Virus record (IMG/VR): IMGVR_UViG_3300032268_000599
Coordinates: 1-64,000 of that record
DNA length: 64,000 nucleotides
Origin: a virus
Strand: one strand, 5' to 3'
Shown here: positions 1,484-50,787 of the stretch, in pieces
Layout: every line of letters begins with the position of its first letter
How positions within the stretch are numbered: the first letter of the stretch is position 1
The notes under the pieces: model-generated
What the model was told of the DNA's origin: nothing
Database searches by the model: none
What the model saw: only the letters and a program-made list of their open reading frames with translations
Made by a program: the position numbers and the translations under genes

Positions 1484-1870
1484 TTGCGACCCCCTGACGA
1501 TCTGAGAGAACGCGGTCTTGATTTCTGGTCGGCGGTTACCGACTCCGTGGAGTTGGACCCGTCCGGATTTGTGCTGCTCGGGGAAGCCTGCCGGATCATT
1601 GACCGACTTGACCGGCTTAGTGTCGCACTGAACGGCAAGGGCCGGGATTGGCTGAAGCTGGCCGACGAAATTGAGGTCACGGCCACCCGATTTGGGGATG
1701 GGAAAAACATCTCCGTGAAAGTTGCGGTAGACGGCTTGCTGTCGGAGTCGCGGCAGCAGCAGTTGGCGTTAAAGACTGTTTTGGCCCAGCTTGGCTTGGG
1801 TAAGACTTTTGAGAAGGCTTCGGGCGAGAAGTCGGCGTTGCAGCAGTGGCTGGAAGCGCGAAGTGGCTAG
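1484..1870 (+). CDS. terS: Terminase small subunit
   Basis: This 128-residue protein lies directly before the large terminase and overlaps its start by eight bases. Its helical N-terminus (RERGLDFWSAVTDSVELD) and the central LLGEACRIIDRLDRL segment match the short terminase small subunits seen in actinophages. TerS binds the packaging site on concatemeric DNA and recruits TerL. Translation starts at TTG (1484), with a weak GGGG ribosome binding site. The assignment rests on position as much as sequence. Confidence 0.75.
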   Translation: MRPPDDLRERGLDFWSAVTDSVELDPSGFVLLGEACRIIDRLDRLSVALNGKGRDWLKLADEIEVTATRFGDGKNISVKVAVDGLLSESRQQQLALKTVLAQLGLGKTFEKASGEKSALQQWLEARSG

Positions 1871-3416
1871 GTCTGCGGTGGCCGAGAGGGTTACCCGCAA
1901 GCCAATGAACCCGGTGGAGTTGCGGCCAAACGTCATCAACGGTCGCCGGGTGGGGAACCAGATCCCCGGTATCAACATTGTGCCGATGCACGAGTCGCGG
2001 GACCGCGGCGATGAGGCCATCGAGTTCCTGCTCCTGGTCGGAATTGAACCCGACCCCTGGCAGGAACACATTTTGCGGGAATCGCTGAACCTGGACAACC
2101 GAAACAAGTGGGCTGCCACTGAGGTGGGCCTGATTGTTCCGCGGCAGTGCGGAAAGACCGTTATTGCGGAACTTCGGGAACTGGTCGGCCTGTTCGTCCT
2201 GGGCGAGCAGCTGCAAATCCACTCCGCTCAGTTGTTCAGTACGGCCAAGGAGTCCTTCCTGCGTCAGGTGGCGCGGATCAGAAGGTGTCCGGACTTGATG
2301 GCGATGGTGCATAAGTTCCGCACCGGTAATGACAATGTTTCCATCGAGTTGAAGAACGGCTCCCGCCTGATGTATCAGGCGCGGGGTAATGATCCAAGCC
2401 GTGGGTTCTCCGCAGACCTTGTGGTCTACGACGAGGCTTACGGTCTGACAGCCGAGGTGATCGCAGCGTCCATGATGACGCTCTCCGCACGTCCGAATCC
2501 CCAGATGTGGTACTGCTCATCCACAGGTATGGAGGATTCGGAATTTTTGTTTCGCGTGCGTGAGCGCGGGTTAGATCGCGCTCCCCGGCTAGCCTTTTTC
2601 GAGTTCTCCGCTTCGCCTGGGTGCGACCCGAAGGACAAGGAGGAGTGGTACAAGGCCATTCCAGCCCTGGGTATCAGAATCGAAGAGGAGTTCATCGAAT
2701 CTGAGGGCCATGCACTGGACTGGGGTAAGCAGTTCTGCCGCGAGCGGCTGGGGCTGTGGGCGGATACCGCCATGCGGGACGTTATTCCGCTGGACTGGTG
2801 GGAAGCTTGCGGGGATTCGGAATCTCAGATTTCTAGCACCCAGATCATTGCCGCGGTGGACATTTCGCCGTTCCGCGACCGGGCTTCAGTAGCCATTTGC
2901 GGCGTTACGGACGAGGGCAGGCGGCAGTTGGAGGTCATTTATACCGCCAAGGGCACCAACTGGGTGGTTGATTACGTCCGGAAGCTCTATATGTCCACGA
3001 ATGCCCCGGAAAAGGTGGTCATTCAGGGCGGTGGTGCGCCGGGTTCGTTCATTGCCCCCCTTCAGCAGGAGGGGATTGAACTCATCATCCTGGGCCAGTC
3101 CGAAATTGGTAGGGCCACCGGGGAGTTCCACGACGCAGTGCGCGACAAAGTGATAGTTCACCTCAATGATCCGACCGTCATGTCGGCGTTCAAGAACTCG
3201 ACCCGGTACAGCATCGGGTCCAAAGAGGGCGGCAGCGAAAGCCCAACATGGGGTTTCGCCCGGAAAGACGCTTCAGCTGCCGATATAACACCCATAGTTG
3301 CGGCCTGTTACGCGCACTACGGGTTGAGCAAATACCTCGCTGAGAGGGCCATAGAAGAGGCAAAAAAGCCCCCTGGGGCGCACATGAACGCCCCCATCGG
3401 CGGAAGGATTTGGTAA
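1863..3416 (+). CDS. terL: Terminase large subunit (packaging ATPase/nuclease)
   Basis: This is the motor that pumps DNA into the prohead and cuts it. The GTG start at 1863 has a GGAAG ribosome binding site and gives 517 residues; longer frames upstream run through terS. The ATPase shows a Walker A at P93-R-Q-C-G-K-T99 and a Walker B, LVVYDEA, with D190-E191. The RNase H-like nuclease half begins near residue 330 with AAVDISPF. The length is normal for TerL. The stop is immediately followed by the portal start (TAAATG). Confidence 0.97.
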   Translation: MARSAVAERVTRKPMNPVELRPNVINGRRVGNQIPGINIVPMHESRDRGDEAIEFLLLVGIEPDPWQEHILRESLNLDNRNKWAATEVGLIVPRQCGKTVIAELRELVGLFVLGEQLQIHSAQLFSTAKESFLRQVARIRRCPDLMAMVHKFRTGNDNVSIELKNGSRLMYQARGNDPSRGFSADLVVYDEAYGLTAEVIAASMMTLSARPNPQMWYCSSTGMEDSEFLFRVRERGLDRAPRLAFFEFSASPGCDPKDKEEWYKAIPALGIRIEEEFIESEGHALDWGKQFCRERLGLWADTAMRDVIPLDWWEACGDSESQISSTQIIAAVDISPFRDRASVAICGVTDEGRRQLEVIYTAKGTNWVVDYVRKLYMSTNAPEKVVIQGGGAPGSFIAPLQQEGIELIILGQSEIGRATGEFHDAVRDKVIVHLNDPTVMSAFKNSTRYSIGSKEGGSESPTWGFARKDASAADITPIVAACYAHYGLSKYLAERAIEEAKKPPGAHMNAPIGGRIW

Positions 3417-5029: not shown

Positions 5030-5644
5030 ATGGATATGGTTTCTCACCACCACGAGGAACAGAAGCACATTGCCCGTTCGGTAGTTATCGAACTGGTTCC
5101 AGCTTGGGAAATACTAGATTTCAATGACCTCAAGAGAACAACTGCACCATGGCTGAAAATGGCACGACCGATTGTGGAGAGCGCGTTCCGGAAAAGCCAG
5201 AATGTAGCTGCGGAGTTTGTCAAAAGCTATCGGAACTTCCAGTTAGACGACCCCCCGGATATGGACTTCGCCGCCCCAGTTTCAGATCGACAAATGTCAT
5301 TGAAGATTATGGCCTCAATGACGGTGACCGGCCCGGTGTGGATGGCGAAAAGAAGCCTTCCAGGTATGGATTTGAATACGATTCCCCAGATCCGAAGGGA
5401 TGGATTCAGCAAGTCTGTAGGTGCCGTGACCAGGCTCGTTCTCAATGGGGGGAGGGGAGTTGTACTGGATCTGGTACAACTCGACCCGCTTGCCAAGGGA
5501 ATTGCGGCAATCGCAGATCCCGACGCTTGTAATGGCTGTCAATTTTTGACTACACCGATAATGAAATCGGCTGGGATTAAAAGAATGGCTGCCGTTTCCG
5601 TTGGGCACGATTTCTGTAATTGTAGTGCAATTCCTGTCTATTAG
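5030..5644 (+). CDS. MuF-like minor capsid protein
   Basis: This 204-residue protein follows the portal. Its C-terminal signature, DPDACNGCQFL ... VGHDFCNCSAIPVY, is typical of the Cys-containing MuF/VG15-like minor head proteins of actinophages. In SPP1 the equivalent gp7 binds the portal and affects DNA ejection. Many actinophage MuF proteins are longer fusions with protease or ADP-ribosyltransferase domains; this one is the bare domain. ATG at 5030 is chosen; ATG 5036 is possible. Confidence 0.8.
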   Translation: MDMVSHHHEEQKHIARSVVIELVPAWEILDFNDLKRTTAPWLKMARPIVESAFRKSQNVAAEFVKSYRNFQLDDPPDMDFAAPVSDRQMSLKIMASMTVTGPVWMAKRSLPGMDLNTIPQIRRDGFSKSVGAVTRLVLNGGRGVVLDLVQLDPLAKGIAAIADPDACNGCQFLTTPIMKSAGIKRMAAVSVGHDFCNCSAIPVY

Positions 5645-8720: not shown

Positions 8721-9692
8721 ATGGCTCGGGAAACCAGGCTTTTTCGGGTTGGCGATTGGGCTTTAGATGTACCAGTTCCAAATCCCGGCCTTCAAAAATG
8801 GCTAAACGGCCCCGAGTGTGAAGCTGCGCTCAAGGATGTAGTTGAAGAAATTTATCGCTATTACATCAATTATCTTCCAGTTAAAACCGGCAGGCTTCGC
8901 GGCAAGGCATCTACGGTCGTTAAACGGGTGGGTGTGCCGGGGCAAACCCGGAGGTATCACGGTTGGGTAACCAACAGCGCGTTGAGCTACCGAAAGACCA
9001 AGGGTAAGCCGTACCCAAGATTTATCGAGTACGGCAAGGCCAACGTAGATGCCGAGGGAAACCGCACCGGCACAAGGACAGCAGCGGGGATGCAGCTTCG
9101 GAATGCCGCGTGGCAGGTTGCAAACAAGCGATTCGGTGCCCAAGCCGCCGCCGCGGTTTTGGGCGGAATGTCCGGTGCCGGTACCGATCTTGGACAGGCC
9201 CGACCTGCCCCCAAGAGGGTTCCGAGCGGCGCGGTGCCGACCTCGGTGGAGAGGTTGGCAGAGTTGGCCAAGGGTACGCCCAGGAAGAAGCAGCTTTCTC
9301 CGCAGGAGAAAGAGGCTCGCCGCGTGGCAATGATTAATGCACAGAGGGCGCGCCGCGCAGGAGAAGCGGAAAATAAAGAAGCACGCCGCGTGGCGCGTTT
9401 GGGCAAAAGTCCCCAGCCCCCTCAGCCGCGCATTCCGCAACCCCCGCAGCGCCCGACAGCGCCACCACGCGCACAGCCCCCTCAGCCGCCGCAGCCGCCG
9501 CGACCGGCTCAGCCACCGCAGCCGCCGCGACCCAGGCCCAACCCGCCTGCCCCAGCCGCGCCAAGTTTGCCACCTGGCTACAGAAGCAACCCCAAGGGGA
9601 AGGGGAGCCAGGTCATCAACTCAAAGGGCCAATTCACTAGGGTTGGCCCCCCAAAGCCGCCTTCGGCACGGAAGCCGCGGCGTAGAAAGTGA
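8721..9692 (+). CDS. HK97 gp10-like tail component with proline-rich tail
   Basis: The first 150 residues match the HK97-gp10/minor tail family: YYINYLPVKTGRLRGKAST and YPRFIEYGKANVDAEGNRTG are the key stretches. This family helps finish the tail end that docks to the head. The C-terminal half is unusual: a basic region (KEARRVAMINAQRARRA) and then a long run of Pro-Gln-Pro repeats from about residue 230 to 285, followed by a short folded-looking end. Family members are usually 130-190 residues, so the repeat tail is an extension. Confidence 0.75.
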   Translation: MARETRLFRVGDWALDVPVPNPGLQKWLNGPECEAALKDVVEEIYRYYINYLPVKTGRLRGKASTVVKRVGVPGQTRRYHGWVTNSALSYRKTKGKPYPRFIEYGKANVDAEGNRTGTRTAAGMQLRNAAWQVANKRFGAQAAAAVLGGMSGAGTDLGQARPAPKRVPSGAVPTSVERLAELAKGTPRKKQLSPQEKEARRVAMINAQRARRAGEAENKEARRVARLGKSPQPPQPRIPQPPQRPTAPPRAQPPQPPQPPRPAQPPQPPRPRPNPPAPAAPSLPPGYRSNPKGKGSQVINSKGQFTRVGPPKPPSARKPRRRK

Positions 9693-11580: not shown

Positions 11581-11996
11581 TCGAGATTGTCAATCGCTTC
11601 TGGGAAGCGATTGAGTGGGATTTCCAGCACCTTCTCGGTGTTGACGCTTATGACTATTTCAGGGAATTGCGTCCTTGGAGCCAGTTTCTGCGATTCTTTG
11701 ACCGCCTCTTAAAGGTGGAGGGATCGGCTGTGCTTGACGCATACCTCAATGACCCAGATGTTGTTGATGAAATGGCCAAAAATCTTGAGTTAAATCCCAA
11801 GCGAAAGAAACCGTCGCTATTTGGCTGGACGGCGGAACTTTCCGCACTTAGAGACATTCAAGATCAACTCATCGCCTCTCGGGGGGGCACCAAGTTCGTG
11901 CCCCGACCAGACGTTCCTGGGCATAAAGAAGGTTGGGTTCGCAAGGACACCAAGCTGAATAAAACCATCGACAGGATTATTGGACCCAAAGAATGA
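11290..11996 (+). CDS. Tail assembly chaperone, -1 frameshifted long form (gpGT-like)
   Basis: Ribosomes that slip back one base at T-TTT-TTC (11556-11562) continue as ...ISHFF-PYPERVVEIVNRFWEAIEW and read on to 11996, giving about 235 residues. The downstream frame has no start codon of its own near the junction, which supports frameshifting. In lambda the T part recruits the tube protein to the G-coated tape measure. The stop at 11996 overlaps the tape-measure ATG (ATGA). Confidence 0.9.
11556..11562 (+). promoter_or_regulatory. Programmed -1 frameshift slip site TTTTTTC
   Basis: The heptamer is in the correct phase (T TTT TTC) relative to the short chaperone frame and lies 15 bases before its stop codon. 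Both tRNAs can re-pair after slipping. This is the conserved arrangement in siphophage chaperone genes. Confidence 0.9.
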
Positions 11997-14900
11997 TTGA
12001 AGCTGGCGTACTCGGTCTTAGACTTTCACCAATCGCTACCGGCTTTTGGAGACGAGCCGACGTTGAACTTAAGGCGCAAAAGGCAAGCAAAGCCGAGGTC
12101 AAGGTTGAAGCCGATATCAAGAAGGCTTCAGCCCAAATTGCCGGGTTCCGTATGCGGGAACAGGCCAATGCGATCAACCTGAGAGTCAAGGTTGACGAGA
12201 AATCCATTCGCACCGCGAATGACAAAATTCGATATATTGAGCACACCTGGAAGCAGTCCGATATCAAACGGGCGGTCCGGGTTCAGGTTTTTGTTGCGGG
12301 TGCGGCTGCTCTTCCGGCCTTGACGCAGGGGATCGTGTCGGTCACGGCGGCGATGACCGAACTGAGCCGGGTCAGCTTGGCCCTTCCGGGCCTTCTTGCC
12401 GGTGTGGGCGCGGCGGCGGCGAGCCTCTTTACCGGCCTCAACGGTGTCGGTGCGGCATTCAAGGCATCGAACGACGGTATGCAGAAATCGGCGCAGTACG
12501 CCCGTCAGTATGCGACGGCGAGCAGGGAACTTGAAAATGCCCAGCGCGATGTTGTCAAAGCCCTCAAGGATGCCAACCGGGAGATTGAGGACCAAAAGAC
12601 CAAGCTGGCGCGGGGGCAGCTGAGTGTTGAGCAGGCCGCTCTGAATGTTCGCCGCGCAAACGACGCGGTTTTCAAGGGCGGCTTCCAGAGCATCACCGAA
12701 TACCAGCAGGCCCTACTCGATGTTAAGTCGGCCAACCTTGACCTCAGTGAAGCGGTAAAGCAGAACTCCCGCAACATCCACGACTATTACGAGAGCGCCG
12801 GTCGGGGCGCTGCCCAATCCGACAATTACAAGGATTCGTTAGATAGGCTATCCAATTCCCTGGATAGCTTCCGCAAGGCCCAATTCCAGGCCGCGGGGAT
12901 GAGCGAGCAGTTCATCAGTGCCATGGAGAACCTGGCCCCTGCCGGTCAGGATTTTGTTCTCCAAGTCCTAAAGATGAAGGGGGCTTGGCAGGGACTCCAA
13001 AACTCCATCCAGACCACCCTGTTCAAGGGGCTGGGCGATGAGATCACTAATCTTGCCAACCGCCAGCTTCCGGTGCTCAAGACCGGTATGCAACAGGTCG
13101 CTGCTGCGATCAATAATGACATTAAGGCGCTATCGCGGACACTGAGCCGCGATTCCAGCGCCAAGAGCATTGCCAACATATTCCAGAACACCGGTCAGGC
13201 AATCACCGCCGCCACCCCTGGGCTGGACTCCTTCACCAGTGGCCTACTGAAACTTTCGGAGGTGGGAACGCGATTCCTACCCAGGGTGGCGCTCGCCTTC
13301 AACAAGGTAATGGGGCGCTTTGAGGCTTTCATCAACAAGGCCGACCGGGACGGCTCACTTAACAAATGGATTGATAGTGGCCTGAAGCTTGTCGCAAGCC
13401 TGGGCAGATCGCTGTTGAGTGTCGGATCAATTCTCAATTCCATTACCGAGGCATACAACAAGGCAACCGGTAACGTCGGCGGCTTCGCGGCCACCATGGA
13501 ACGCGCCCTCTCCGGGCTAGCAAAGAGCTTGGCATCCCCGGAGGGCCAGGGGCAGCTAATCAAATGGATACGAAGCTCCCGCGAGTTCATGGAGACGATT
13601 TCCGAGGCATTGCCTGGAATCAGAAAAATCTTCGCGGCCATTGGTGAGGGTGCAAGGGGATTTGCCGCGGTATTCTTCCCAATCTTTTCTAGCATTGGCA
13701 ATACAATCGGTGGCGCAAATGGACCACTGAAAACATTTGTTTCCGGCATGTTGATTTGGCGGACCATTGTTCCGCTCGTTAACGGAATGGGCAAGGCATG
13801 GCGCTACCTTAATGCCCAGTTCCAGCAATTCACGGAAAAACGTGCGGCTCTTCTTTCATCAAGAACTGCCGCATGGAAAGCCGCATTCGACGCGGACGGG
13901 ATTAAGTTTGCCGCTCAAACTCGCCTAAGGGCGCTCAACGATGAGGTCAAGGAGACTGACCGACTCTACGCGCGGATGTTCAATTCCCGCGCCGCCGCCG
14001 AACTTGAATACACCAAAGCGCAGAAGCGTCGTCAAGACCTTGAAGGCACGGCTAAATCCTCCAAGAAGGCTGCCAAAAAGGACGGCCTTGACGAAGCCGA
14101 GGCCAAGAGGAGGAGGGGCATATACCTGGCCGACGCTAATGCTTTCAAGCAGGCGAAGGCGGTAGAGAAGCGCGCCCTTGAGGAATTCAACATCAGGGAT
14201 GAGCGGCTATACAAAGCCGCCGCTGACCGGAGTGAGCTTCGGCGCAGCCTAGAGGTTGCTCGACCAAGGGCCTACAGGGATCTTCGGGAAGCCACCAATC
14301 TGGCAACCAAGGCGCAAGAGAATTTCAACAGGGTCAACCGCCTGACCGCCGATGGCATGTCCGGAAAGTGGGCGCGCTCGGTAGCCCTAATGAAGGGCAA
14401 GTATGACGGGCTGAAGTCCGCCTTGGGGTTCATCGGCGGTGTCGGTGCTTCGGCTGGCATAGCGGTCGGTGTGGCCGTGGCCTTCGATCAGCTAACAGCC
14501 GCCCAGGACAGAAACAAGGCATCCGCAGATAATCTCAAGGAATCTCAGGACGCGCTTGCCCAAACCCTTTCCAAGGGAACCGGATCCGCGACAGCGGCCA
14601 CGCTGGAAGAGAACGCGCGGCAGCTTAGGGACCGCTCCAACCCGGTTCACCCGGACGATCCGGGGCAGAACTTTGATGCCGCGAAAATCCTTGAGGGCCA
14701 GCTTGGAATGTCCCTTTCCGAAGCTGTAAACCTCACCCTTCCAACCGAAGTCAAGAAGCGGGAGGCCCGTCTCGCCACCGCCGACGCTCAGGTCATCGCC
14801 GCCGTTCCCGGCCTCGATGAGTGGAAGCAGTGGGGCAAGGACTTCGAGAAGAATGGTGTCAATTCAAGCGTTTACGGCAAGGCCCTCAACGGCGATCCTG

Positions 14901-17900
14901 GTTCAATCGGAAAGGTCGAGGCCGCTCGTGAGGCAATCCGATACGCCAATACGCCGGGATTGAAACTCGGTGCTGCCGTTGCAATCGGATCAGCACCCAA
15001 TGACCTCGGGGCCGCTCAGGAGCAGCTAGACAGATCGGGTCCATACGGAGGACTGCGCGGACTATCTCTTGCGACCGGCGCGGCCAGAAGCATTGGAAAT
15101 GAATCCCTTGCCAGGAGCCAGGATGCTCGTGAGTCCGCGAATGTAATTCCGCAGCGAGGATTGAACAGCCGCGGATCCAGCACGTTTGGCAAGTTCACCC
15201 TTGGCCCGAATGGGGCGATCATCAATCCGGACGGTTCCGCCGTCGTTGAGGTCGAAACCTATCCCGGTGAGGCGTGGATTCAGGCGCAGGCCGATAAGGG
15301 AATTTCTGTTGAGCGCAGATTCCCCAACGGCGCGGTCATCACCATCGGCCCGGAGTTCGGTCGGCAATATTTCAATAGCTACGCTCGCGGTGGCCCAGTT
15401 TGGGGGGCGGGTTCCGCAACGTCGGACAGCATCCCGGCGATGCTCTCTAATGGCGAGTTTGTTATCAACGCCAAGTCTGCCTCTCTGATCGGGCACGACC
15501 GGTTGCAACAAATGAACAGCATGAAGTTCGCCAATGGTGGACTTGTGCGCCGGTACGCTCCTGGCGGTCCGGTTTTGCCGCTTAACCCGCCACCAGATGA
15601 TGGCGGTAGCGCCGATGTGGTAGACGCTATTCTTGGCGGTAACAACGGGCCTGCGAGTATTGACCCGTTCAATCCAGGCGGGGTTTACGGCAATGTCCCG
15701 ACCCCGGCAGCGCCAAGCCCACCGATTAGGACCGATCCGGTCAATTCGGCTCCGGTGGTCCGACCCTATGTTCCACCAGCCCCGGCGATTTCACAGTTCG
15801 GCTCTATCGCCAACGGGATTGATTACATCCCAAGGCTTGGCGGCAGCGGAGCGCTTTCAGACTATGGAAGCACCGCCGCTTCAGCCGTAGACAAGGCTCC
15901 GATCAATCCGGATGCCAACATTCTCGACTATCTGGTTCAGGTGTCGAACGCTTTCGGGCTGAAGCCCGGTAGCGGACCAGCTGATACCGATGCTGGAAAC
16001 AAGATTGCCGATGAACTCGGCATTATGAACCACGGTCCGATCCCTGGAAACGGGATGCGACCCGCACAGCATGATGTTAACCGCGCCCTTGACATGGGAA
16101 CCGCCGAGCAGTCCCAGGCGGGTGAGATCACTGAATTTGTCAAGGCGTGGATGAGCGATCCGGCCAAGGTCGCGGCGACCCGTCAACTCATCTACAGAGA
16201 TCCAAAAACCGGTGAATCTTTCGGAATACATAAGGGCCGCAGGCTTTTTGGAGATGAGCTTCAGATCGTCTACGGTGACGATCTCCCCGATCACACTAAG
16301 CATGTTCATCTCGCCCTAGAGGGCGTTCCGCTATCCGCATTCAAGACAAATCTTCCCACGGCAAACATCCCCAAGCTGGGCGACATGCCAAAGGCCCCCC
16401 AAGGCCCGGTGGCGATTTCTCCGGGGCCAGCCGCCAGCACACCCAAGAGCGACGTTCAGCTATCCACCCCTGGGGCAATAAAGGGGCCGTTTGGGGACAT
16501 TCCGTTCGACCCCATCAGCATCCTCAAGCAAATCGGTGCCGCCATCCTCAACGGCATCTTCGCCTTCTTCGGGGTTGACGGCTCCGGATTTGTTAATGCG
16601 CTCTTCGGGCTGGGTGGCCAGCAGGGGCTTGGGATTGGCAAACAGGTGGAAGAAATTCCGCAGGCCGATCCGGACCTCGTTGCCGGTCTTGATGCCCAGA
16701 TCGCCCAGTACGAGGCCGTGGGCACACCGGCTGCCCTGGCGTTGGCCGAAAAGATCAAGGCCGGAAGGGACGGCTACCTCAAGCAGTTCGATTCAGTCAA
16801 CGCTGCCGCGAGCGCGGAGTCCGCGGCGGCTTACTTCGACAGCATCGGACAGCCTGACACCGCGGCGAAGTTGCGCGCCGGGGTGGAGGCCCTTGGCCCC
16901 AATCCGAACGAACCGAACCCGGAAAGGTTCGGCCCGGTAACCACCGTCCCCGGAACCGGGGAGAAGGGGCCGACAGCCCTGCCCCGCTCCGGTGTGTTTG
17001 TGGCACCGGCAGCCAACTACTCTGGCGGCACGCCGGAAACCCACAATGCTATCTATCGGGCGTTCAAGGAAGCCGGTTATCCGGACTCCGAATGGCCCTC
17101 CCTTGTTGAGCTTCTGAATCACGAGAACGACACATACGATCCGCTCAGGCCGACCGGTGGCCCCAACTCGGATGCTTCCGGCATCTTCCAATTCCTGTCC
17201 ACGACGTGGGACGAAGTTGGAATGCAGTACAGCACGGATCCGTATGTCCAGAGCGTTGCCGGTATGCGCTACATCAAGAAGCGTTACGGAACGCCAACTG
17301 CCGCATGGAATTTCTGGCAGAACCCCAACCCTCCCGGCCCGGACCCCAACTGGCCGCATTGGTACTCGACTGGCGGAATGGTTGCGCTAGCCAGGGGCGG
17401 AATGGTTTCCGGCCCCGGAACGGGCACCTCCGACAGCATCCCTGCGATGCTTTCCAACGGCGAGTTCGTCATGCGCGCCGATGCGGTGAAGCACTGGGGT
17501 AGCGACAAGCTTCACGCGATGAACCGCTATGCCGATGGCGGCTTGGTCGGGTACGCACCCGGTGGTCTTGTGATACCAAGCGATCCCGAGCAGCAGAAGT
17601 CGATGCTGCGGGATGCTTTCAAACCGAGAAGCGACGACCCGAATATGCAGGGTGGCGGCGGCTCCTTTGACTCCGCGCCGAAGCTGTCCACCGCCCAGAG
17701 TATCGGCCAAAATATTGGAAACTGGGGCAAAGGGTTCGCCCAGGCCGCGGATCAGGCGGTTACAGGTCTTGCTCCGCTAGTTGGCGCGGGTAACTTGCTG
17801 AACGATGCCGTTCGCCTGGAGTCGCAGTTGCTCGGCAGACCCGATCAAAGCATCAAAGACTACAAAGCGCCCGGTGTCGCGGATTCATGGAAGGGCGTGG

Positions 17901-20900
17901 CTTCCGCTATCGCACCCCTAGTGGGGGCCGGAAATGTCGTTAACAACGCATTGGGGATAAAAGCGGCCCCGGCTGCGGGAGTTGGGGATTCGTGGGAGGC
18001 GATGGCTAAGGCAACCAGTCGCTATGACCAGTGGACCGGTGGGCAAAAAGCCGAAGCCCTTGGTGGAAATATGTTCGACATTCTCACCGCGGTCCTCCCC
18101 GGAGGTGCCCTATTTAAGGCAAATCAGGTTGGGCAGTTGGGGGTCAAGGGAGCGCTCGCCAGCACTTCCACGCCCACGGTTTCCGGTATTACTCGCGCGG
18201 CTGCTCAGTCGGCAGGGGCGATAGTCCCTGGCGCTGGCATTGTCGGTAGGGGAGTGGCAGGCGGCGTAATGGCCGCAAGGCAGGCCGCGTGGGTTAGGAA
18301 ACACACTAGGGGTATTGATTTCAGCGACCTCGTTGCTCCGAGGGCTGCAAGAAAAGAAATCATAAGATCCATTGCGGAACTGCAAGCAGCTGCACCCACA
18401 AACCTGCATCGGGTCTATACGGATCCAGGCATTTCCAGTGAAACTGGCTTGACCTTGGCCCATACGGGACTTGAGATGAAGGCAAGCACCGGAGATGTGG
18501 GTGGTTCCATTGGCGTAAATGTGAGGGCCTTCGACAGCCCGAATACCTTGACAAGAATCTTTTCAAAGTACCAGAGCGTAAAGAACCCGGACAGGGGATT
18601 TCACCCGTCAACCGGACTTAAGGGCGGCATATTCCAGGTAATAGCCCATGAATATGGACACGTCCTTGACCAACTTAACCTTGGTGCCCGGAGCGAGGTG
18701 CCAATTCAACTTGTTGACGATTATCCCGGTTCGCGGTCGGGGCCGAGCAAGGCCCCTGAAAATGTAACATATCCGCGATCACTGCGCATTTGGCAGGAGA
18801 TGGAAACCACTAATTTCGGAGATAATCAACCTCGGCTAACGCCAAACGAAGCTTTTGACCTTTATGGCAACCAGCGAAAAGCCACGCTTGGCGCAGACCG
18901 CAGGACATATACGGGAGCAAAGGCGATTTCGGACTTCAGGTTCAGGGAGTTGCTGGGCGAGAGGTTCAGGGAAGAATTTGACACCGTAACGCGAAATAGG
19001 GCCGAGGCATTTGGTACGCCGGATCGTTATAACCCATATGAATTTGCGAAATTTATTCGCAGCAGGTTGAGTGGCTACAGTTACATAAAGGGTGACGACC
19101 TTGAAGTTATGACGGGACTGCCAGGGGGCACCTTAGCTACAATTAGAGAAACCCTGGCCGACGCAAACATACACGGGTTTAGTCAAACCCAGCTACAGGA
19201 TTTGATTACCGCGTCGGTTCTTAGCCCACCGGACGGCAAGGTTCCACAGGCCCTCTCCAACCTATTTGGCGACCAACTAAAAAACGGTCCACCACGGTCA
19301 AGGGAACCCGAGGGGCTTTATGGTTCTCCCGCTCAATGGGCACTGCGAACAATAGATCGCCACGAATCCCTTGCCGAGGCTTTTGCCGACGTTATGACAA
19401 ACGGCGTGCGCGCTTCCCGAGGCAGCAAGACTGTTTACAATGTCCTTCAGGAGCAACTTAAGCTTCGCGGCGTAAAAATTCCGAAAATAGATAAAGCCGA
19501 TTATTCCGACGTGACCTCTAGGACCCAGGGCCTTGTGGGTCAGGGCATGTTCGATTCCGAAGGCTCTCAACTTATTCAGGAAATTTTCAAGACGTACACC
19601 GCGGGGCTGCTTTATGCGGAGTCGGACGCAAAGACTAACGCAGAGGCGGCTCGCGCTCGACTCGGACTCAAGGACGAAGATGCTGCCCTAGGGAGAATGC
19701 GCCAAATTCGCCAATCGCGCCGCGACTCTAAGGGGCGGTTCGCCAAGTTGTTTGGCGGGAAGGGCAAGAAAAAGAGCGAACTCCCATCCGGTCCGATGGC
19801 CATGAGCAAACCCCCGGTTCAAGGTAGGGGCTTGGCGAAGGGCTGGGAATCCGCCGTCAAGCAGGCGGACGAGATGTTCGATTTCGCGGTTGAGGAACAC
19901 AGGTTTCAGTGGAACCCGTACATACCTACGCGAGCACCGTGGGGGCCGGATGAGGATGGAAACCCCCGTAGAAACAGAACTCCGATGGGTTCACCGTTCG
20001 ACTGGGATCAGTTAACGAGCCTGATTGGGTATTCTGGCAGTTCCTCCGTAAATAAATCATTACGCGGAATGGATCAACTGCCATTATATGCGCGCGTTCT
20101 AAAAGAATTACTGGCAATCCGTCCAAACATGTCCGGATATGGTGGCAGGGCACAGGTTTATAGTCCCGGTCAGCTTTTGAAGTACATGGAAGATAATAAG
20201 GGTATGCCAGCCGCGGCTATGATCGAAGCCCTCGGTCGCGAGTTCCCAGGTAATAGTACTCAACAGTACTGGGAGCTTTTGCTTACTCAAAATTTGGCGA
20301 AGGCGCGCGCAGCTGCGGCGAGGATGCTGGACAACCTGGGTACAATTCAATACCTCGACTCAGCATTTGAAGCGTCCCAGCCGCTAGCCCAGGATATGTG
20401 GGTAACAAGATTCGTCGATGACCTTAATCCGAATTTCCCAGATCTAAGCAATCCGGAAGCGCTGGTCGGACAGACCATTCCGAATGTGGGGTATTCATCG
20501 ACCTCTGTTGGCATTACCGCTAAACCACAGACCGGACCGCTACAGTGGCGGCATCGTTCTAAGAATAATCAAGAGGCCAATCCTTTCCAACTTCGACGCG
20601 TAATGAAGCAGATGCTAGTTCGCGCCGGGATGCCAGCGATTTGGTTTGGCGGCTACGAGGGCGAGTTGATGTTCCCAAGGGGGCTTGACTTTAACGTACT
20701 CGGCCAACAGGACATTAGGGCAGCTGCGGGTTATGGTCCGGAGGACATGCGATATGCCGCGGAGGTGGCGCGCAAGGTTGAGGAGATGACCGGGCAGGCC
20801 CAGCCGAATAAATTCAAGCTCTGGGGTACTGCATCCCTAAACCCGGATAATCAGTCAACTCCCACCCCTGCCGATCTTGGGTATGGAGAATTAGAACCAA

Positions 20901-22399
20901 TACTCAAGGCAATGAGTGGTGGTGCGTGGATTAATTTATTAGCGCCACAAAGCCCCACTAACTTCAGGCCAGAGTATTCTGATTTTAGAGACATGCCGCT
21001 CTATCATGCCCTCTCCTTTGATAGTCCGACCCCGAACCCGCCGCTGAACCCGGTGCTGTTCGCCCCCGGATACATGACCAACAATATCCCAAAGAAGAAG
21101 GCTTCCGAAGTGCCGATGGATTTCGGGAGCATGGATTTCCCCGATCCGGGCGATGGGTCGCTAGCGGCTGCGGGTCGCGCGTTTGATCCGATTGCTATGG
21201 GCGAACTTTACGGACCGTCGCCAATGGATTTATCTTTTTTACCCGATTTGACAGACGATTGGAAGGAAGTAATAGCACCGAGGATTGAGAAGTGGGGGAC
21301 GAGGCGTATGGAAGAAACCGGTCGGCTATACCCCCGCCTTGATCGACTAACCGAACAAGAACAGGCCCTAATTTCAACACCCTTCTTAGAAAGCGGTCGA
21401 TCCCTCTACGGTATTACCGAGATCTTGGGAACCCTGGGGGAGCCTAGCTGGTGGTGGACTCATTTGAATTATCGTTTCGGCGCGGAATTTGCGGATTGGT
21501 TTACCCCCAAGCTGTTCGGAATGATGCCCGGTACCGACATGATGATGTACGCCAATGGCGGGTACGTTAGCGGTCGCGGTGGACCGAAGTCGGACATGAT
21601 CCCGGCGATGCTTTCCAATGGTGAGTTCGTGATGAGCGCGGCGGCAACGGACCGAATTGGCGCTGGCCGTCTGATGGCGATGAACAAGTTCGCCAACGGT
21701 GGCCCCGTCCCACCCGCACCTAGCGGTGGTTCCGATCCGGACGCTTTCAAGGATCTGTCCAAGTTTATGACGACCCCGCTGTTCAAACCGGCAGAGTCGG
21801 GAAGTTCCGATCCGGACGCGTTCAAGGACTTGAGTGCGATAACCCCCGCCAGCATTGCCGGATCGGTTCTTTCCCCGAAGGGCGTCGGTGGTGGAGTGTC
21901 GGCTGGCGCGGCTGCGCCAAAGCCGAAGGACCCCAGGGCAATCTTGGGTGCCGCACCGCGGAGCGATAGCTACGTCAACCCCGCGCTGGCCGGTGCTATC
22001 AATGGCGTCTTTAACACGGTCGGTGGGCTGGTTTCCCAGGCCGCGGGATTCGCCGGGGCCGCAGCATCAGCGCAGGCCACTGGCGGTGCCCCGATCCCCG
22101 GTGCCGGTCAAGCGACCTCCGCTCTCGTCAGTGCCGGATTCCAGATGGCCGGTGACGTTGCGGTGGGCGCGGCGAACATCATCTCAGCCCTCCTGGTCGG
22201 GACGGTAACCCCGTCGCAAACCGGGCAGGGATACGGTGCCCCGCTACTTCCACAGCAGCAGCCGGGGGGCGGGGTCAACAACTTCCAGTCCATTCACAAC
22301 GGAAATGTCGTGACCAACAACTTGTCCGAATACAGCAGGCTCAAGGACCGCAAGGATGCCCAGAAAGCCGCTCCGTTCTTTAATCGGGTGAACCAGTAA
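11993..22399 (+). CDS. Giant tape measure protein with cell-wall, protease-like and ADP-ribosyltransferase-like domains
   Basis: This 3468-residue protein sets tail length and travels through the tail at infection. Residues 1-1130 are the ruler: coiled coils (notably 660-790) and hydrophobic segments (100-150 and 805-830). An M15-like peptidase signature follows, with H1360/RALD1367 and H1437-V-H1439. A transglycosylase SLT domain spans 1665-1790 with catalytic Glu likely E1711 and the SGIFQFLSTTW motif. A hydrophobic linker (1860-2100) leads to a metallopeptidase-like domain with HEYGH at 2219-2223 and a later ESLAEAFAD. Residues 2617-2935 carry R2806, S2836-T-S and E2889-x-E, the ADP-ribosyltransferase signature. 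Three repeats of a motif with IPAMLSNGEFV lie at 1132-1185, 1801-1853 and 3189-3242. The 18.3-21.0 kb DNA looks more AT-rich than its flanks. Confidence 0.93.
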   Translation: MIEAGVLGLRLSPIATGFWRRADVELKAQKASKAEVKVEADIKKASAQIAGFRMREQANAINLRVKVDEKSIRTANDKIRYIEHTWKQSDIKRAVRVQVFVAGAAALPALTQGIVSVTAAMTELSRVSLALPGLLAGVGAAAASLFTGLNGVGAAFKASNDGMQKSAQYARQYATASRELENAQRDVVKALKDANREIEDQKTKLARGQLSVEQAALNVRRANDAVFKGGFQSITEYQQALLDVKSANLDLSEAVKQNSRNIHDYYESAGRGAAQSDNYKDSLDRLSNSLDSFRKAQFQAAGMSEQFISAMENLAPAGQDFVLQVLKMKGAWQGLQNSIQTTLFKGLGDEITNLANRQLPVLKTGMQQVAAAINNDIKALSRTLSRDSSAKSIANIFQNTGQAITAATPGLDSFTSGLLKLSEVGTRFLPRVALAFNKVMGRFEAFINKADRDGSLNKWIDSGLKLVASLGRSLLSVGSILNSITEAYNKATGNVGGFAATMERALSGLAKSLASPEGQGQLIKWIRSSREFMETISEALPGIRKIFAAIGEGARGFAAVFFPIFSSIGNTIGGANGPLKTFVSGMLIWRTIVPLVNGMGKAWRYLNAQFQQFTEKRAALLSSRTAAWKAAFDADGIKFAAQTRLRALNDEVKETDRLYARMFNSRAAAELEYTKAQKRRQDLEGTAKSSKKAAKKDGLDEAEAKRRRGIYLADANAFKQAKAVEKRALEEFNIRDERLYKAAADRSELRRSLEVARPRAYRDLREATNLATKAQENFNRVNRLTADGMSGKWARSVALMKGKYDGLKSALGFIGGVGASAGIAVGVAVAFDQLTAAQDRNKASADNLKESQDALAQTLSKGTGSATAATLEENARQLRDRSNPVHPDDPGQNFDAAKILEGQLGMSLSEAVNLTLPTEVKKREARLATADAQVIAAVPGLDEWKQWGKDFEKNGVNSSVYGKALNGDPGSIGKVEAAREAIRYANTPGLKLGAAVAIGSAPNDLGAAQEQLDRSGPYGGLRGLSLATGAARSIGNESLARSQDARESANVIPQRGLNSRGSSTFGKFTLGPNGAIINPDGSAVVEVETYPGEAWIQAQADKGISVERRFPNGAVITIGPEFGRQYFNSYARGGPVWGAGSATSDSIPAMLSNGEFVINAKSASLIGHDRLQQMNSMKFANGGLVRRYAPGGPVLPLNPPPDDGGSADVVDAILGGNNGPASIDPFNPGGVYGNVPTPAAPSPPIRTDPVNSAPVVRPYVPPAPAISQFGSIANGIDYIPRLGGSGALSDYGSTAASAVDKAPINPDANILDYLVQVSNAFGLKPGSGPADTDAGNKIADELGIMNHGPIPGNGMRPAQHDVNRALDMGTAEQSQAGEITEFVKAWMSDPAKVAATRQLIYRDPKTGESFGIHKGRRLFGDELQIVYGDDLPDHTKHVHLALEGVPLSAFKTNLPTANIPKLGDMPKAPQGPVAISPGPAASTPKSDVQLSTPGAIKGPFGDIPFDPISILKQIGAAILNGIFAFFGVDGSGFVNALFGLGGQQGLGIGKQVEEIPQADPDLVAGLDAQIAQYEAVGTPAALALAEKIKAGRDGYLKQFDSVNAAASAESAAAYFDSIGQPDTAAKLRAGVEALGPNPNEPNPERFGPVTTVPGTGEKGPTALPRSGVFVAPAANYSGGTPETHNAIYRAFKEAGYPDSEWPSLVELLNHENDTYDPLRPTGGPNSDASGIFQFLSTTWDEVGMQYSTDPYVQSVAGMRYIKKRYGTPTAAWNFWQNPNPPGPDPNWPHWYSTGGMVALARGGMVSGPGTGTSDSIPAMLSNGEFVMRADAVKHWGSDKLHAMNRYADGGLVGYAPGGLVIPSDPEQQKSMLRDAFKPRSDDPNMQGGGGSFDSAPKLSTAQSIGQNIGNWGKGFAQAADQAVTGLAPLVGAGNLLNDAVRLESQLLGRPDQSIKDYKAPGVADSWKGVASAIAPLVGAGNVVNNALGIKAAPAAGVGDSWEAMAKATSRYDQWTGGQKAEALGGNMFDILTAVLPGGALFKANQVGQLGVKGALASTSTPTVSGITRAAAQSAGAIVPGAGIVGRGVAGGVMAARQAAWVRKHTRGIDFSDLVAPRAARKEIIRSIAELQAAAPTNLHRVYTDPGISSETGLTLAHTGLEMKASTGDVGGSIGVNVRAFDSPNTLTRIFSKYQSVKNPDRGFHPSTGLKGGIFQVIAHEYGHVLDQLNLGARSEVPIQLVDDYPGSRSGPSKAPENVTYPRSLRIWQEMETTNFGDNQPRLTPNEAFDLYGNQRKATLGADRRTYTGAKAISDFRFRELLGERFREEFDTVTRNRAEAFGTPDRYNPYEFAKFIRSRLSGYSYIKGDDLEVMTGLPGGTLATIRETLADANIHGFSQTQLQDLITASVLSPPDGKVPQALSNLFGDQLKNGPPRSREPEGLYGSPAQWALRTIDRHESLAEAFADVMTNGVRASRGSKTVYNVLQEQLKLRGVKIPKIDKADYSDVTSRTQGLVGQGMFDSEGSQLIQEIFKTYTAGLLYAESDAKTNAEAARARLGLKDEDAALGRMRQIRQSRRDSKGRFAKLFGGKGKKKSELPSGPMAMSKPPVQGRGLAKGWESAVKQADEMFDFAVEEHRFQWNPYIPTRAPWGPDEDGNPRRNRTPMGSPFDWDQLTSLIGYSGSSSVNKSLRGMDQLPLYARVLKELLAIRPNMSGYGGRAQVYSPGQLLKYMEDNKGMPAAAMIEALGREFPGNSTQQYWELLLTQNLAKARAAAARMLDNLGTIQYLDSAFEASQPLAQDMWVTRFVDDLNPNFPDLSNPEALVGQTIPNVGYSSTSVGITAKPQTGPLQWRHRSKNNQEANPFQLRRVMKQMLVRAGMPAIWFGGYEGELMFPRGLDFNVLGQQDIRAAAGYGPEDMRYAAEVARKVEEMTGQAQPNKFKLWGTASLNPDNQSTPTPADLGYGELEPILKAMSGGAWINLLAPQSPTNFRPEYSDFRDMPLYHALSFDSPTPNPPLNPVLFAPGYMTNNIPKKKASEVPMDFGSMDFPDPGDGSLAAAGRAFDPIAMGELYGPSPMDLSFLPDLTDDWKEVIAPRIEKWGTRRMEETGRLYPRLDRLTEQEQALISTPFLESGRSLYGITEILGTLGEPSWWWTHLNYRFGAEFADWFTPKLFGMMPGTDMMMYANGGYVSGRGGPKSDMIPAMLSNGEFVMSAAATDRIGAGRLMAMNKFANGGPVPPAPSGGSDPDAFKDLSKFMTTPLFKPAESGSSDPDAFKDLSAITPASIAGSVLSPKGVGGGVSAGAAAPKPKDPRAILGAAPRSDSYVNPALAGAINGVFNTVGGLVSQAAGFAGAAASAQATGGAPIPGAGQATSALVSAGFQMAGDVAVGAANIISALLVGTVTPSQTGQGYGAPLLPQQQPGGGVNNFQSIHNGNVVTNNLSEYSRLKDRKDAQKAAPFFNRVNQ
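15386..15547 (+). repeat. Tape-measure repeat, copy 1
   Basis: This encodes about 54 residues containing SDSIPAMLSNGEFVINA, then RLQQMNSMKFANGGLV. It lies between the ruler region and the M15-like peptidase region. The motif is common in tape measures; here it appears three times at domain borders. Confidence 0.85.
17393..17551 (+). repeat. Tape-measure repeat, copy 2
   Basis: The second copy has SDSIPAMLSNGEFVMRA followed by KLHAMNRYADGGLV. It sits between the transglycosylase domain and the hydrophobic linker before the protease-like domain. Confidence 0.85.
21557..21715 (+). repeat. Tape-measure repeat, copy 3
   Basis: The third copy has SDMIPAMLSNGEFVMSA followed by RLMAMNKFANGGPV. It closes the block that holds the protease-like and ADP-ribosyltransferase-like domains. 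Confidence 0.85.
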
Positions 22400-38663: not shown

Positions 38664-39542
38664 ATGACCGACTTCAACGTAGAACGGGACCGTTGGGGCC
38701 GACCCCTTCTGTACCCACCGCAGGGCGGCAAGGCCGTGGCATACACGAGGGCTTCCACGATGGCCAAGTGGCTTGACTCGCAGGCCGGTTTAATCAACTG
38801 GAAGGCATCCATGGCGATGATTGGCATGGCCAGGTCCAAGCCCATTCAGGCCAGGATCGCCGCCATCGTCGCCCGGACCGAAAATGATGCGTACCGGGAG
38901 AACAAGGAAGCCCTGAAGGATCTGGTGGAGAACGCCACCCAGATCGCCCAGGCGCAAGGCCGCGCAGACCTGGGGACGGCGGTCCACGAGTTCACCGAGC
39001 TTCTTGATGCCGGAACGCTGGACTGGCAGTTCGTACCAGAACAGCTGAAGGCCCCCCTTGCCCTCTACCGCGAGAAGATGCAGGCATTTGAGACGGTGGA
39101 CACTGAGGTTTTCGTGGCCGTCGATGCTGAAAGCGTTGACGGCAAGGCAATTCGTGGGGCTGGAAGCCTGGACCGAATCATCCGGCACCCGGAGTTCGGC
39201 GTGTGCGTGGCCGATATCAAGACCGGCGCAGAAGAGCCAAAATACCCCCTTGGTGTCACCACCCAGGTGGCGATCTACTCGCGTGGGAGCCGATACAGGG
39301 ACGCAAGATTCTCCGGATCGCCAGCCTTTGATGACGGCGAGCCTAATGCCGATGGCACCGCCTTCCGCAAGGAGCTTCACCCCGAACTGAACAAGTCCGT
39401 GGGAATTATGATCCACCTCCCGCTGGAAAAGGCCGAATGCTCGCTGTACGCATTGGACCTCGATCACGGCTGGGAGTCCATGCTCCTTGGGCACCGCGTT
39501 CAGGACTCCCGCCGCCCACCCAAACTGCAAAGGATTGGATGA
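38664..39542 (+). CDS. Cas4/RecB-like exonuclease
   Basis: This 292-residue protein has PD-(D/E)xK nuclease features: LGTAVHEFTELLDAG, GSLDRIIRHPEFGVCVADIKTG (with the D...D-x-K core) and TTQVAIYSRG. Such nucleases resect DNA ends for the annealing protein, here ERF directly upstream. ATG 38664 is chosen (GTG 38661 is adjacent); no good ribosome binding site is seen. It ends in an ATGA overlap with the next gene. Confidence 0.88.
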   Translation: MTDFNVERDRWGRPLLYPPQGGKAVAYTRASTMAKWLDSQAGLINWKASMAMIGMARSKPIQARIAAIVARTENDAYRENKEALKDLVENATQIAQAQGRADLGTAVHEFTELLDAGTLDWQFVPEQLKAPLALYREKMQAFETVDTEVFVAVDAESVDGKAIRGAGSLDRIIRHPEFGVCVADIKTGAEEPKYPLGVTTQVAIYSRGSRYRDARFSGSPAFDDGEPNADGTAFRKELHPELNKSVGIMIHLPLEKAECSLYALDLDHGWESMLLGHRVQDSRRPPKLQRIG

Positions 39543-40228
39543 AAGTGCCCGACGACGTGCTTGAGTCCACAGATGACGTTCACGAGTCCATCGAACTGAG
39601 CAAAGCCCTTTCGGAAGCGGAGAAGGCGGCGTTTGAGGCCCGGTTGTCGGAAATTCAGGTCGCCCGGTCGGAGGTAGAGCTTCTTGAGGCTCAGATCAAT
39701 TTGGACTACCAGCTATCGGGGCTGTTCACCTTCCATCGTCGCGTGGAGCAGAAGTCGATGAACCGCCTGTACCGATCCATGCGCCTGTGGAACAAGCACA
39801 ATGCCAGCGGTAAGTGGACGATCTACCTCAACTCCGTAGGGGGCGAGGCGTGGGCGGGTATCGGAATCATTGACGAGTTGATCGCTCAGTCCATTCGCGG
39901 CGGCGGTACGCACGACATAACAATCAAGGTCCGCGGAGTGGCTGCGTCGGCAGCGGCGATGATCCTTCAGTCCGCGGACCACCGCGTCATCGGTCGCAAC
40001 TCCCAGTTGATGATTCACAAGGGTTCCTCCGGTATCCAGGGCACCGCCGACGATATCGGTGATGAACACGCGTGGTGGGAGTCCAGCGTGGAGCGGATGG
40101 CGGAACTGTTCCTTTCCCGCACCGAAAAGATCACCAAGCGCGAGTTCATGCGGAAGATCAACCGGCGCGACTGGTGGCTGTCCGCTGACGAGGCTGTCAG
40201 GGTTGGGTTCGCTGATGAAATCGGATGA
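39539..40228 (+). CDS. ClpP-like serine protease in the replication operon
   Basis: This 229-residue protein has a helical N-terminal extension (residues 15-60) and a ClpP/crotonase-type fold. Key residues are S137 in GVAASAAAMIL, H160 in LMIHKG and D211 in RRDWWLSADEAVRVGFADEI. IYLNSVGGEAWAGIGI is the typical substrate-binding strand. Phage ClpP-like proteases are usually head-maturation enzymes next to the portal; here the gene sits between recombination genes and SSB, and the head cluster needs no protease. It may process a replication protein or host target. Confidence 0.88.
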   Translation: MKVPDDVLESTDDVHESIELSKALSEAEKAAFEARLSEIQVARSEVELLEAQINLDYQLSGLFTFHRRVEQKSMNRLYRSMRLWNKHNASGKWTIYLNSVGGEAWAGIGIIDELIAQSIRGGGTHDITIKVRGVAASAAAMILQSADHRVIGRNSQLMIHKGSSGIQGTADDIGDEHAWWESSVERMAELFLSRTEKITKREFMRKINRRDWWLSADEAVRVGFADEIG

Positions 40229-48587: not shown

Positions 48588-48960
48588 TAGCTACATCATC
48601 AACCAGGACGACCTGATATCGGTGACGGTTACCGATTCCGCCCCGGTGAGCGTCACCGTTACCGACCCCGATCCGATTGAGATTGTTGGCTTCCTTGGAC
48701 CCATGGGTCCGACCGGCCCAAGGGGGGCCGGTAATGAAACGGTTTCTCAGGTAATTTCTGCCAGCCTTCAGAATGGCGTTACCGCTACCTTTACCCTATC
48801 TCAGGCTGCCGATATCACGCAGGCGGTTCAGGTATTTCGCAATGGGCTGTTGGAAATACCGGTCGTCGGATTCACGGCCACCCAGAACTCTATTACCTTA
48901 ACAACCCCTCCGCTGAACAGTGATGTTATAGCGGTCATCTACCAGAAAGTTGCATCGTAA
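48580..48960 (+). CDS. Minor tail protein with short collagen-like segment
   Basis: This 126-residue protein has two VTVTDS/VTVTDP repeats, a short collagen-like GPMGPTGPRGA stretch and a C-terminal domain (NGLLEIPVVGFTATQNSITL) also seen in the next protein. It overlaps the previous gene by eight bases. It is likely a trimeric fibre segment. Confidence 0.75.
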   Translation: MADSYIINQDDLISVTVTDSAPVSVTVTDPDPIEIVGFLGPMGPTGPRGAGNETVSQVISASLQNGVTATFTLSQAADITQAVQVFRNGLLEIPVVGFTATQNSITLTTPPLNSDVIAVIYQKVAS

Positions 48961-49694
48961 TGGCTCAGACCCAGATTAATGGCGGCACACAGATTCGTTC
49001 TGGTTCAATTACCGCCGACCGGCTTGCCGCTGGCACCCTCGACAAGAACGCAGTTGGTCTTGGCAATGTGGATAACACTTCGGATGCCAACAAGCCGATC
49101 AGCACTGCCACGCAGACAGCCCTTGATGGCAAGCAGAATACGTCCACTTACGGCTACGCGACACTTGATGCGGGTGGCAAGGTTCCGGTTTCCCAGTTGC
49201 CTAGTGCAATCATGGAGTACCAGGGTGTGTGGAATGCCAGCACCAATACCCCGACCCTGGCGAATGGAACCGGTAATACCGGTGACGTGTATCGGGTTTC
49301 GGTTTCCGGCAACGCCCTGTCTCTGAGCTTTGAGGTTGGCGACTACATCATCTACAACGGCAGCGTTTGGGAGAAGAGCGACACAACCGATGCGGTTGCA
49401 AGTGTTGCGGGGCGCACCGGAGTAATCACCCTGACCACCACGGACCTGTCGGACTTCGGCACTGCCGTCACCGGAAAATTCGTGACGCGGGAAACCCCGA
49501 CCGGCGCAGTCAACGGCACTAACACGTCTTTCGTGCTCGCCAACACCCCGGTCGCTGGTTCGGAGCAGGTGTTCCTGAATGGCATTTTGCAGGAGCCGGG
49601 TGTCGGTAATGACTACACCATTTCTGGCAGTGCCATTACCTATCTTTCAGCCCCGGTTACGGGCGACAAGATTCGGGTCAGCTACGTTAAGTGA
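48960..49694 (+). CDS. Tail fibre protein
   Basis: This 244-residue fibre has TADRLAAGTLDKNAVGLGNVDNTSDANKPIS, the classic phage fibre repeat, then ATLDAGGKVPVSQLPSAIME. The C-terminal FVLANTPVAGSEQVFLNGIL domain resembles the end of the preceding gene. It starts at the ATG overlapping the previous stop (TAATG). Confidence 0.85.
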   Translation: MAQTQINGGTQIRSGSITADRLAAGTLDKNAVGLGNVDNTSDANKPISTATQTALDGKQNTSTYGYATLDAGGKVPVSQLPSAIMEYQGVWNASTNTPTLANGTGNTGDVYRVSVSGNALSLSFEVGDYIIYNGSVWEKSDTTDAVASVAGRTGVITLTTTDLSDFGTAVTGKFVTRETPTGAVNGTNTSFVLANTPVAGSEQVFLNGILQEPGVGNDYTISGSAITYLSAPVTGDKIRVSYVK

Positions 49695-49704
49695 GAGTTG
49701 AATA

Positions 49705-50787
49705 ATGCCTAAAACAGAAGTTTCTGGCAGTCAGATCAAGGACAGTTCTGTCGCCCTGTCGGGTGCGGCATCTCCAACGGGTAATGCTGACGTGGCCGGT
49801 GTTTTGCCAGCCGGTAACGGAGGGACGGGGCTTTCCTCACCGGGCGCAAGCGGTAACGTGCTGACCTCTGACGGTACGGGGTGGACTACTGCTGCGCCTA
49901 CTGGTGGTGGTGGTGGTGGTGCAGCTAATGCCGGAGTTACTTCTGTTCCTACCGCTGCCGGTGTTACATTACTGTCGAGTTCCAGTACGGAAAACTATGT
50001 GTTTACCGGCGTAAGCACGCAAACGGTGAGGCTTCCTCCCACTGCCACTGTTGGGGCAGTATGGACGATCATTAATCAATCGACTGGGTTGGTGACGGTT
50101 CAGTCCTCCGCAGCTGCTGCGATTGTGGTTTTGGCTGCGGGTACGTCAGCGATTTTTACTGCACTGACTACTGCCCCTACTGCTGCGGCGAACTGGACTG
50201 CGGTATACAACGGCTCCCTGGCTGCGACTGGCAAGAAGCTGACGGTCAACAACACCTTGACACTATCCGGCACTGATGCGACTACGATGACGTTCCCAAC
50301 TACGAACGCCACTATCGCCAGAACTGATGCGGCCCAGACCTTTACGGGTGTGCAGACTTTTAACACCCCGGTCATCAATGGTATTCCGACTGGCACTGGC
50401 GTGGCGACGGCGGCGACTGCCAACACCTTGGTTTTGCGCGGCACTGGCGGCACGGTAACCGGAACATTTATAGATTCCACCACTGCTGTAGGAACTATCG
50501 GCGCGGCGGTGACACTGGCCCTCGCGGGTACGGTGCAGACGGCCACGCTGACTTCAAATACTCCTTGTACGGTGACGATGCCTGCGGTGGCTTCTGGTGC
50601 CTCGTTTGTGTTGTATCTGCGGCAGCCTGCGACGGGTACACCGACGACGGCGACGTTCTCTGGCGTGCGGTGGGGCACTGGCGGTGCGCCGGTCATCACC
50701 AACGTGTTGGGGCGCATGGACATTTTGACGTTTTTCTCTGACGGCACCAACTGGTTCGGACAAGTGGCGCAGGGATACCAGTACTGA
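49705..50787 (+). CDS. Tail fibre protein, Thr/Ala-rich
   Basis: This 360-residue protein begins with a fibre motif, VAGVLPAGNGGTGLSSPGASG, followed by a run of six glycines and a beta-rich shaft. The C-terminal VLYLRQPATGTPTTATFSGVRWGTGG and ILTFFSDGTNWFG resemble knob domains of phage fibres. It ends in TGATG with the next gene. Confidence 0.82.
   Translation: MPKTEVSGSQIKDSSVALSGAASPTGNADVAGVLPAGNGGTGLSSPGASGNVLTSDGTGWTTAAPTGGGGGGAANAGVTSVPTAAGVTLLSSSSTENYVFTGVSTQTVRLPPTATVGAVWTIINQSTGLVTVQSSAAAAIVVLAAGTSAIFTALTTAPTAAANWTAVYNGSLAATGKKLTVNNTLTLSGTDATTMTFPTTNATIARTDAAQTFTGVQTFNTPVINGIPTGTGVATAATANTLVLRGTGGTVTGTFIDSTTAVGTIGAAVTLALAGTVQTATLTSNTPCTVTMPAVASGASFVLYLRQPATGTPTTATFSGVRWGTGGAPVITNVLGRMDILTFFSDGTNWFGQVAQGYQY

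Follow-up and report, generated by a model that had tools for sequence, protein, structure and literature searches.

A highly diverged ADP-ribosyltransferase domain within the tape measure protein of an uncultured virus

The tape measure gene and its ADP-ribosyltransferase motifs

The window analysed in this work is a stretch of 64,000 nucleotides, positions 1 to 64,000 of the uncultured virus record IMGVR_UViG_3300032268_000599, which has 70,362 bases in full. A single open frame at 11993..22399 encodes the tape measure protein (TMP), with 3468 residues; the gene and all the features assigned to it below are on the plus strand. The protein matches PHROG 3547, 'tail length tape measure protein' (E 1.6e-276, residues 4-1997), and its gene has the major tail protein upstream and minor tail proteins downstream, as in siphophages. 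Profile, alignment, PHROGs and structure-model evidence indicates that residues ~2667-2915 (19991..20737) include a genuine ADP-ribosyltransferase (ART) domain, which belongs to the R-S-E class and has diverged strongly.

R2806 (20408..20410), the catalytic-motif arginine of strand 1, is located in WVTRFVDD, which starts at residue 2803 (nucleotide 20399). The S-S-T-S motif of strand 2 (20495..20506), with S2836-T2837-S2838, is located in GYSSTSVG (start 2833, nucleotide 20489) and has the aromatic-x-S-T-S form, Y2834-S-S-T-S2838. The ExE catalytic motif of strand 5, E2889-G-E2891 (20657..20665), is part of GYEGELMF (start 2887, nucleotide 20651). In addition, YSGSSSVNKSLR (residues 2680-2691, 20030..20065) presents Y2680-x-G...N2687-x-x-L-R2691, the YxG..N..LR N-terminal helix signature of VIP2/PF03496-type ARTs. 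An alignment of 20 sequences revealed Y2680, N2687, R2691, R2806, G2826, S2836, G2879 and E2891 as invariant, and E2889 as conserved in at least 90%.

The initial annotation of this DNA, made from the letters alone, had assigned the three catalytic motifs to these same residues, which was confirmed in the translated 11993-22399 frame. The span that it gave for the domain, 19842-20799, agrees in its residue numbers but starts one base out of frame; residue 2617 begins at 19841, and the literal translation of the span is full of stops. The helix signature goes beyond that annotation, as do three features described below: a repeat-flanked module of ~1330 residues, an adjacent zincin-like HExxH domain, and a second virus with the same module.

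Three motifs could stand in order by accident within a long, low-constraint protein. The bare ordered motif R-x-S[TSQ]S-x-[EQ]xE was found in 36% of 2000 shuffled TMPs and is therefore weak evidence. The motif was present in 1.1% of the shuffled proteins once an aromatic residue ahead of STS and a strict ExE were required, and joined with the upstream YxG..N..LR signature it was present in none (0/2000). A chance resemblance is strongly disfavoured by the profile evidence with its reversed and shuffled controls, and is also opposed by the independent library match in PHROGs and by conservation in the second virus, so it is regarded here as highly improbable.

Homology and predicted structure of the domain

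The profiles were built without the window, from actinophage ARTs and further ARTs from IMG/VR. A search (hmmsearch) with the hidden Markov model (HMM) of 30 ARTs ranked the TMP first of 1228 frames, at E 5.6e-10, with a runner-up at 1.6. The alignment of the window and the second virus, compared with 12 ARTs in hhalign, reached a probability of 97.0 (P 9.5e-11), while the controls stayed at 0.2 (reversed alignment) and at most 3.5 (50 column shuffles). The sole PHROGs family for the domain was 'ADP-ribosyltransferase exoenzyme toxin' (E 0.026, residues 2784-2901). In a tblastn search with the module, the only plasmid records matched were those of Streptomyces clavuligerus (E 0.2, 31% over 118 residues), most of which give the gene as ADP-ribosyltransferase, and that S. 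clavuligerus protein itself belongs to PF03496 (E 2e-24).

The check by profile HMMs, suggested in the initial annotation, had a mixed outcome: the custom profile, hhalign and PHROGs were positive, and Pfam and NCBIfam score nothing for the domain. In a search of the virus's own genome, neither PF03496 nor PF18760 (ART-PolyVal) was matched at E<=10, which for PF03496 leaves the TMP outside the Pfam cut-off. Since there is no Pfam match and membership comes only through the wider profile comparison, the domain is filed as a diverged homologue; under the rule of Pfam itself it is no PF03496 member. Sequence searches of the PDB with the domain gave no real relative, and GTDB genome contigs gave none for the ART region. 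The tblastn searches of ~50,000 phage records with the ART or the peptidase region returned nothing, for the ART not even at E 10. A feature that distinguishes the domain in the 20-sequence alignment is an insert of ~95 residues that separates the LR helix from the LDSAF helix.

The AlphaFold model obtained with the 20-sequence alignment presented a mean predicted local distance difference test score (pLDDT) of 66.5 and a predicted template modelling score (pTM) of 0.63, with pLDDT of 77-84 in the blocks of the catalytic strands. R, STS and ExE map to strands 186-192, 219-222 and 275-278 of the modelled segment, which are the expected strands, the ExE lying at the start of the last one. Foldseek returned 24 PDB matches at E<=0.001, all of them ADP-ribosyltransferases among the matches listed, and the viral library returned VIP2-like ARTs. 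VIA-align against solved ARTs gave Z of 12-14 over ~160 residues, the best being Z 14.0 with a root mean square deviation of 3.0 over 163 residues. Because the model was guided by an ART-rich alignment, this fold match is support and no separate proof. With profile homology, the motifs and an ART-type fold in the model that the initial annotation had called for, its proposal of an R-S-E class ART inside the TMP is borne out, the class being of the VIP2/C3-like kind.

The extra module and the other regions of the tape measure protein

The domain is part of an extra module, residues ~1854-3183 (~1330 residues; 17552..21541), which is absent from the TMPs of the mycobacteriophages Rey and Aegeus and shared with one other virus, the 24-kb contig IMGVR_UViG_3300032302_000052, whose TMP has 3991 residues. 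A repeat of ~55 residues, GGxVxGxGTxTSDSIPAMLSNGEFVMxA (SDSIPAMLSNGEFV), occurs three times in the window TMP, at 15374-15547, at 17381..17551 (residues 1797-1853, the left flank of the module) and at 21542..21712 (residues 3184-3240, the right flank). As two of the three copies bracket the module, its edges suggest a recombination point.

Local alignments between the two TMPs gave identities of 60-76% in the core, 65% in the C terminus and 40-42% in the module, and a MAFFT alignment gave 44% for the ART segment. Since identity in the module is below that of the TMP core, the module evolves faster or was exchanged. The ART of the relative retains R, the S-x-x-S spacing (SSxS) and E-x-E, in the form E-N-E.

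Upstream of the ART, residues ~2098-2560 (18284..19672) form a region that looks like a zincin-type metallopeptidase, its function being read from the motif. HEYGH is located at 18647-18661, and a candidate third ligand lies in ESLAEAFADV near 19364, ~240 residues past HEYGH. The region is single in the window and is present as two tandem copies in the relative (L005 16497-19376). A three-way alignment showed the H, E and H of HExxH and ExxAEAFxDV to be invariant in all three copies. The relative's region has weak, below-cut-off scores to metallopeptidase families M43/M10; the window copy has no significant Pfam match, and the patterns used found no relatives in phage records or IMG/VR. HExxH is present in one of 18 ART-bearing proteins from other viruses, so that its pairing with an ART is not general.

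Two further regions precede the module. Residues ~1337-1445 (16001..16327) resemble by eye a D-Ala-D-Ala-carboxypeptidase-like peptidase (HxxxxxxD...HVH), with no Pfam match. Residues ~1673-1791 (17009..17365) form a transglycosylase-like domain (PHROG 12661 transglycosylase, E 1.4e-7; NCBIfam AggPromo_Cterm, E 1.2e-12), which is usual in actinophage tape measures.

Genome organization and host

The structural genes are arranged in the order terminase, portal, head maturation protease, scaffold, capsid, major tail protein, tape measure, minor tail proteins and lysins. By protein, the TMP is closest to those of the Vilmaviridae mycobacteriophages Rey (2267 residues) and Aegeus (1634 residues), and no record in the phage collection matches its gene in a DNA-level search. 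The host is probably an actinobacterium, judging from the TMP relatives only. The initial annotation mentioned a short MuF protein, which was not recovered: Pfam Phage_Mu_F is unmatched across the 70-kb record (E<=10), and the gene that follows the portal, a small one at 5030-5641, is scored as a head maturation protease.

A further ClpP/head-maturation-protease-like protein (PHROG 94, E 6.8e-42) is encoded at 39437-40225, far from the head genes and amid replication and recombination genes. The head-tail connector block includes a protein of 323 residues (8721-9689) that matches no PHROG and whose C terminus is long and rich in proline. At 48960-52616, well downstream of the main structural block, there is a second group of tail-fibre or minor-tail-like genes.

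Proposed function

The motifs described above suggest that the domain is a mono-ADP-ribosyltransferase of the VIP2/C3-like R-S-E class that has probably kept its catalytic competence, and this enzyme is probably carried into the bacterium by the tail itself during infection. Then, we propose that the TMP carries a virion-borne ART effector, which would modify a host protein at infection and whose way of working would resemble that of T4 Alt or the MuF-VIP2 fusions; we give this reading a probability of roughly 0.58. Entry into the cell and modification of a host protein at infection had been suggested in the initial annotation, and both are plausible. The TMP is packed in the tail and exits ahead of the DNA, and the module would enter or reach the cytoplasm, the site of nicotinamide adenine dinucleotide (NAD+). 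The neighbouring zincin-like domain may cut the module free, and the ART would then transfer ADP-ribose to a host protein, as T4 Alt does. The ExE motif suggests arginine as the acceptor, and the outcome would be that early phage gene expression is favoured or a defence is blunted. Cytoplasmic delivery is plausible, since the lambda TMP was proximity-labelled at the inner membrane during injection (PMC13190303).

Several points weigh against this proposal. The tail lumen may not have room for a folded ART, and the single-sequence AlphaFold model of the domain reaches a pLDDT of only 42, to which can be added the ART-rich alignment behind the better model and the silence of Pfam and NCBIfam. 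Ahead of ExE, the loop lacks ~six residues relative to the other ARTs of the 20-sequence alignment. In the relative, the middle residue of STS is Phe (SSFS) and the domain scores ~2 bits in the 30-ART profile, for which reason a loss of activity may be under way in part of the family.

The same observations bear on the idea of a degenerate ART or pseudo-enzyme, that is, a captured fold with little or no catalysis left, which now serves the tail as a structural or binding part. A position below Pfam detection, the short loop before ExE, the SSFS of the relative together with the lack of the usual R after its ExE, and the faster divergence of the module than of the TMP core would all be in line with it. 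Nevertheless, R, S, ExE and YxG..N..LR are intact in the window, and the relative has the same residues except for the middle one of STS, which makes such a loss unlikely for the domain described here.

An active enzyme, NAD+ glycohydrolase or ART, could also act on phage or virion proteins or on free NAD+ instead of a host protein, for instance in superinfection exclusion, NAD+ depletion or self-modification of the tail. In R-S-E ARTs, an ExE rather than a lone E favours transferase chemistry, and the ExE found here speaks against this use. On the other side, NAD(P) glycohydrolases are among the known ART-fold effectors (PMC13285283), and no ADP-ribosylglycohydrolase or macrodomain was detected in the record; we judge it to be quite unlikely.

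If the proposed effector role is true, the enzyme sits in the first protein that leaves the tail, ahead of the DNA, and would be a natural reporter of TMP entry in actinobacteria. The system allows a direct test of whether siphophage TMPs bring enzymes into the cytoplasm besides opening the envelope. A broader and more tentative idea, which we hold with some doubt, is that some actinophage TMPs are cargo carriers, in which exchangeable peptidase and ART modules between TMP repeats ride in the tail, are self-cleaved into the cytoplasm before the DNA, and reprogramme or disarm the cell.

Comparison with known systems

The combination of ARTs with predicted self-processing zincin peptidases is a known theme in polyvalent proteins of phages and conjugative elements (Iyer et al. 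2017, PMC5512222). Like the TMP, in which the zincin-like peptidase is a candidate one, these are large multidomain virion-associated polypeptides with an ART, a zincin-like peptidase and a cell-wall hydrolase. They differ in the carrier, which here is a TMP, and in the ART clade, named there as Tox-ART-HYD2, while Pfam ART-PolyVal is unmatched here; the word 'tape' is absent from that work.

Tape measures with enzymatic domains have also been described. Tme, a tape-measure-related effector of the contractile injection systems of Streptomyces davawensis, is a tape-measure-like protein with an enzymatic effector domain, but this is a C-terminal nuclease and the injection system is non-viral (PMC11126660). 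The peptidoglycan-hydrolase motifs in mycobacteriophage TMPs, as in TM4 (PMC1796659), are likewise embedded and aid infection, and the TMP of this work has a transglycosylase-like domain as well. Their target is the cell wall, whereas an ART needs cytoplasmic NAD+.

Three ART queries against the phage collection found, among the matches listed, MuF or capsid-protease fusions, head proteins, tail or tail-fibre proteins and free-standing ARTs, and no TMP. A TMP-ART fusion was not found in the ~50,000 phage records or in the literature searched.

The precedents for virion-borne ARTs are T4 Alt and the MuF-VIP2 fusions (PMC7302621, PMC9503650). The latter, in actinophages such as Microbacterium phages Goodman and Percival and Arthrobacter phage Reedo, join a virion structural protein to a PF03496/VIP2-type ART with the YTG..N..LR, R, STS and ExE motifs, and their injection is presumed. 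Sequence identity between their ARTs and that of the TMP is ~25%; they are borne C-terminally on a head protein (MuF or capsid protease), whereas in the TMP the ART is internal. T4 Alt is likened to the TMP domain by principle and not by sequence: it is an ART from the virion that modifies host proteins at infection, as proposed here, but it is a separate, head-packaged and injected protein that acts on host RNA polymerase and is no part of the tail ruler. Phage heads are a known site of virion-borne ARTs, as with T4 Alt and the MuF fusions, and the domain described in this work is placed in the tape measure.
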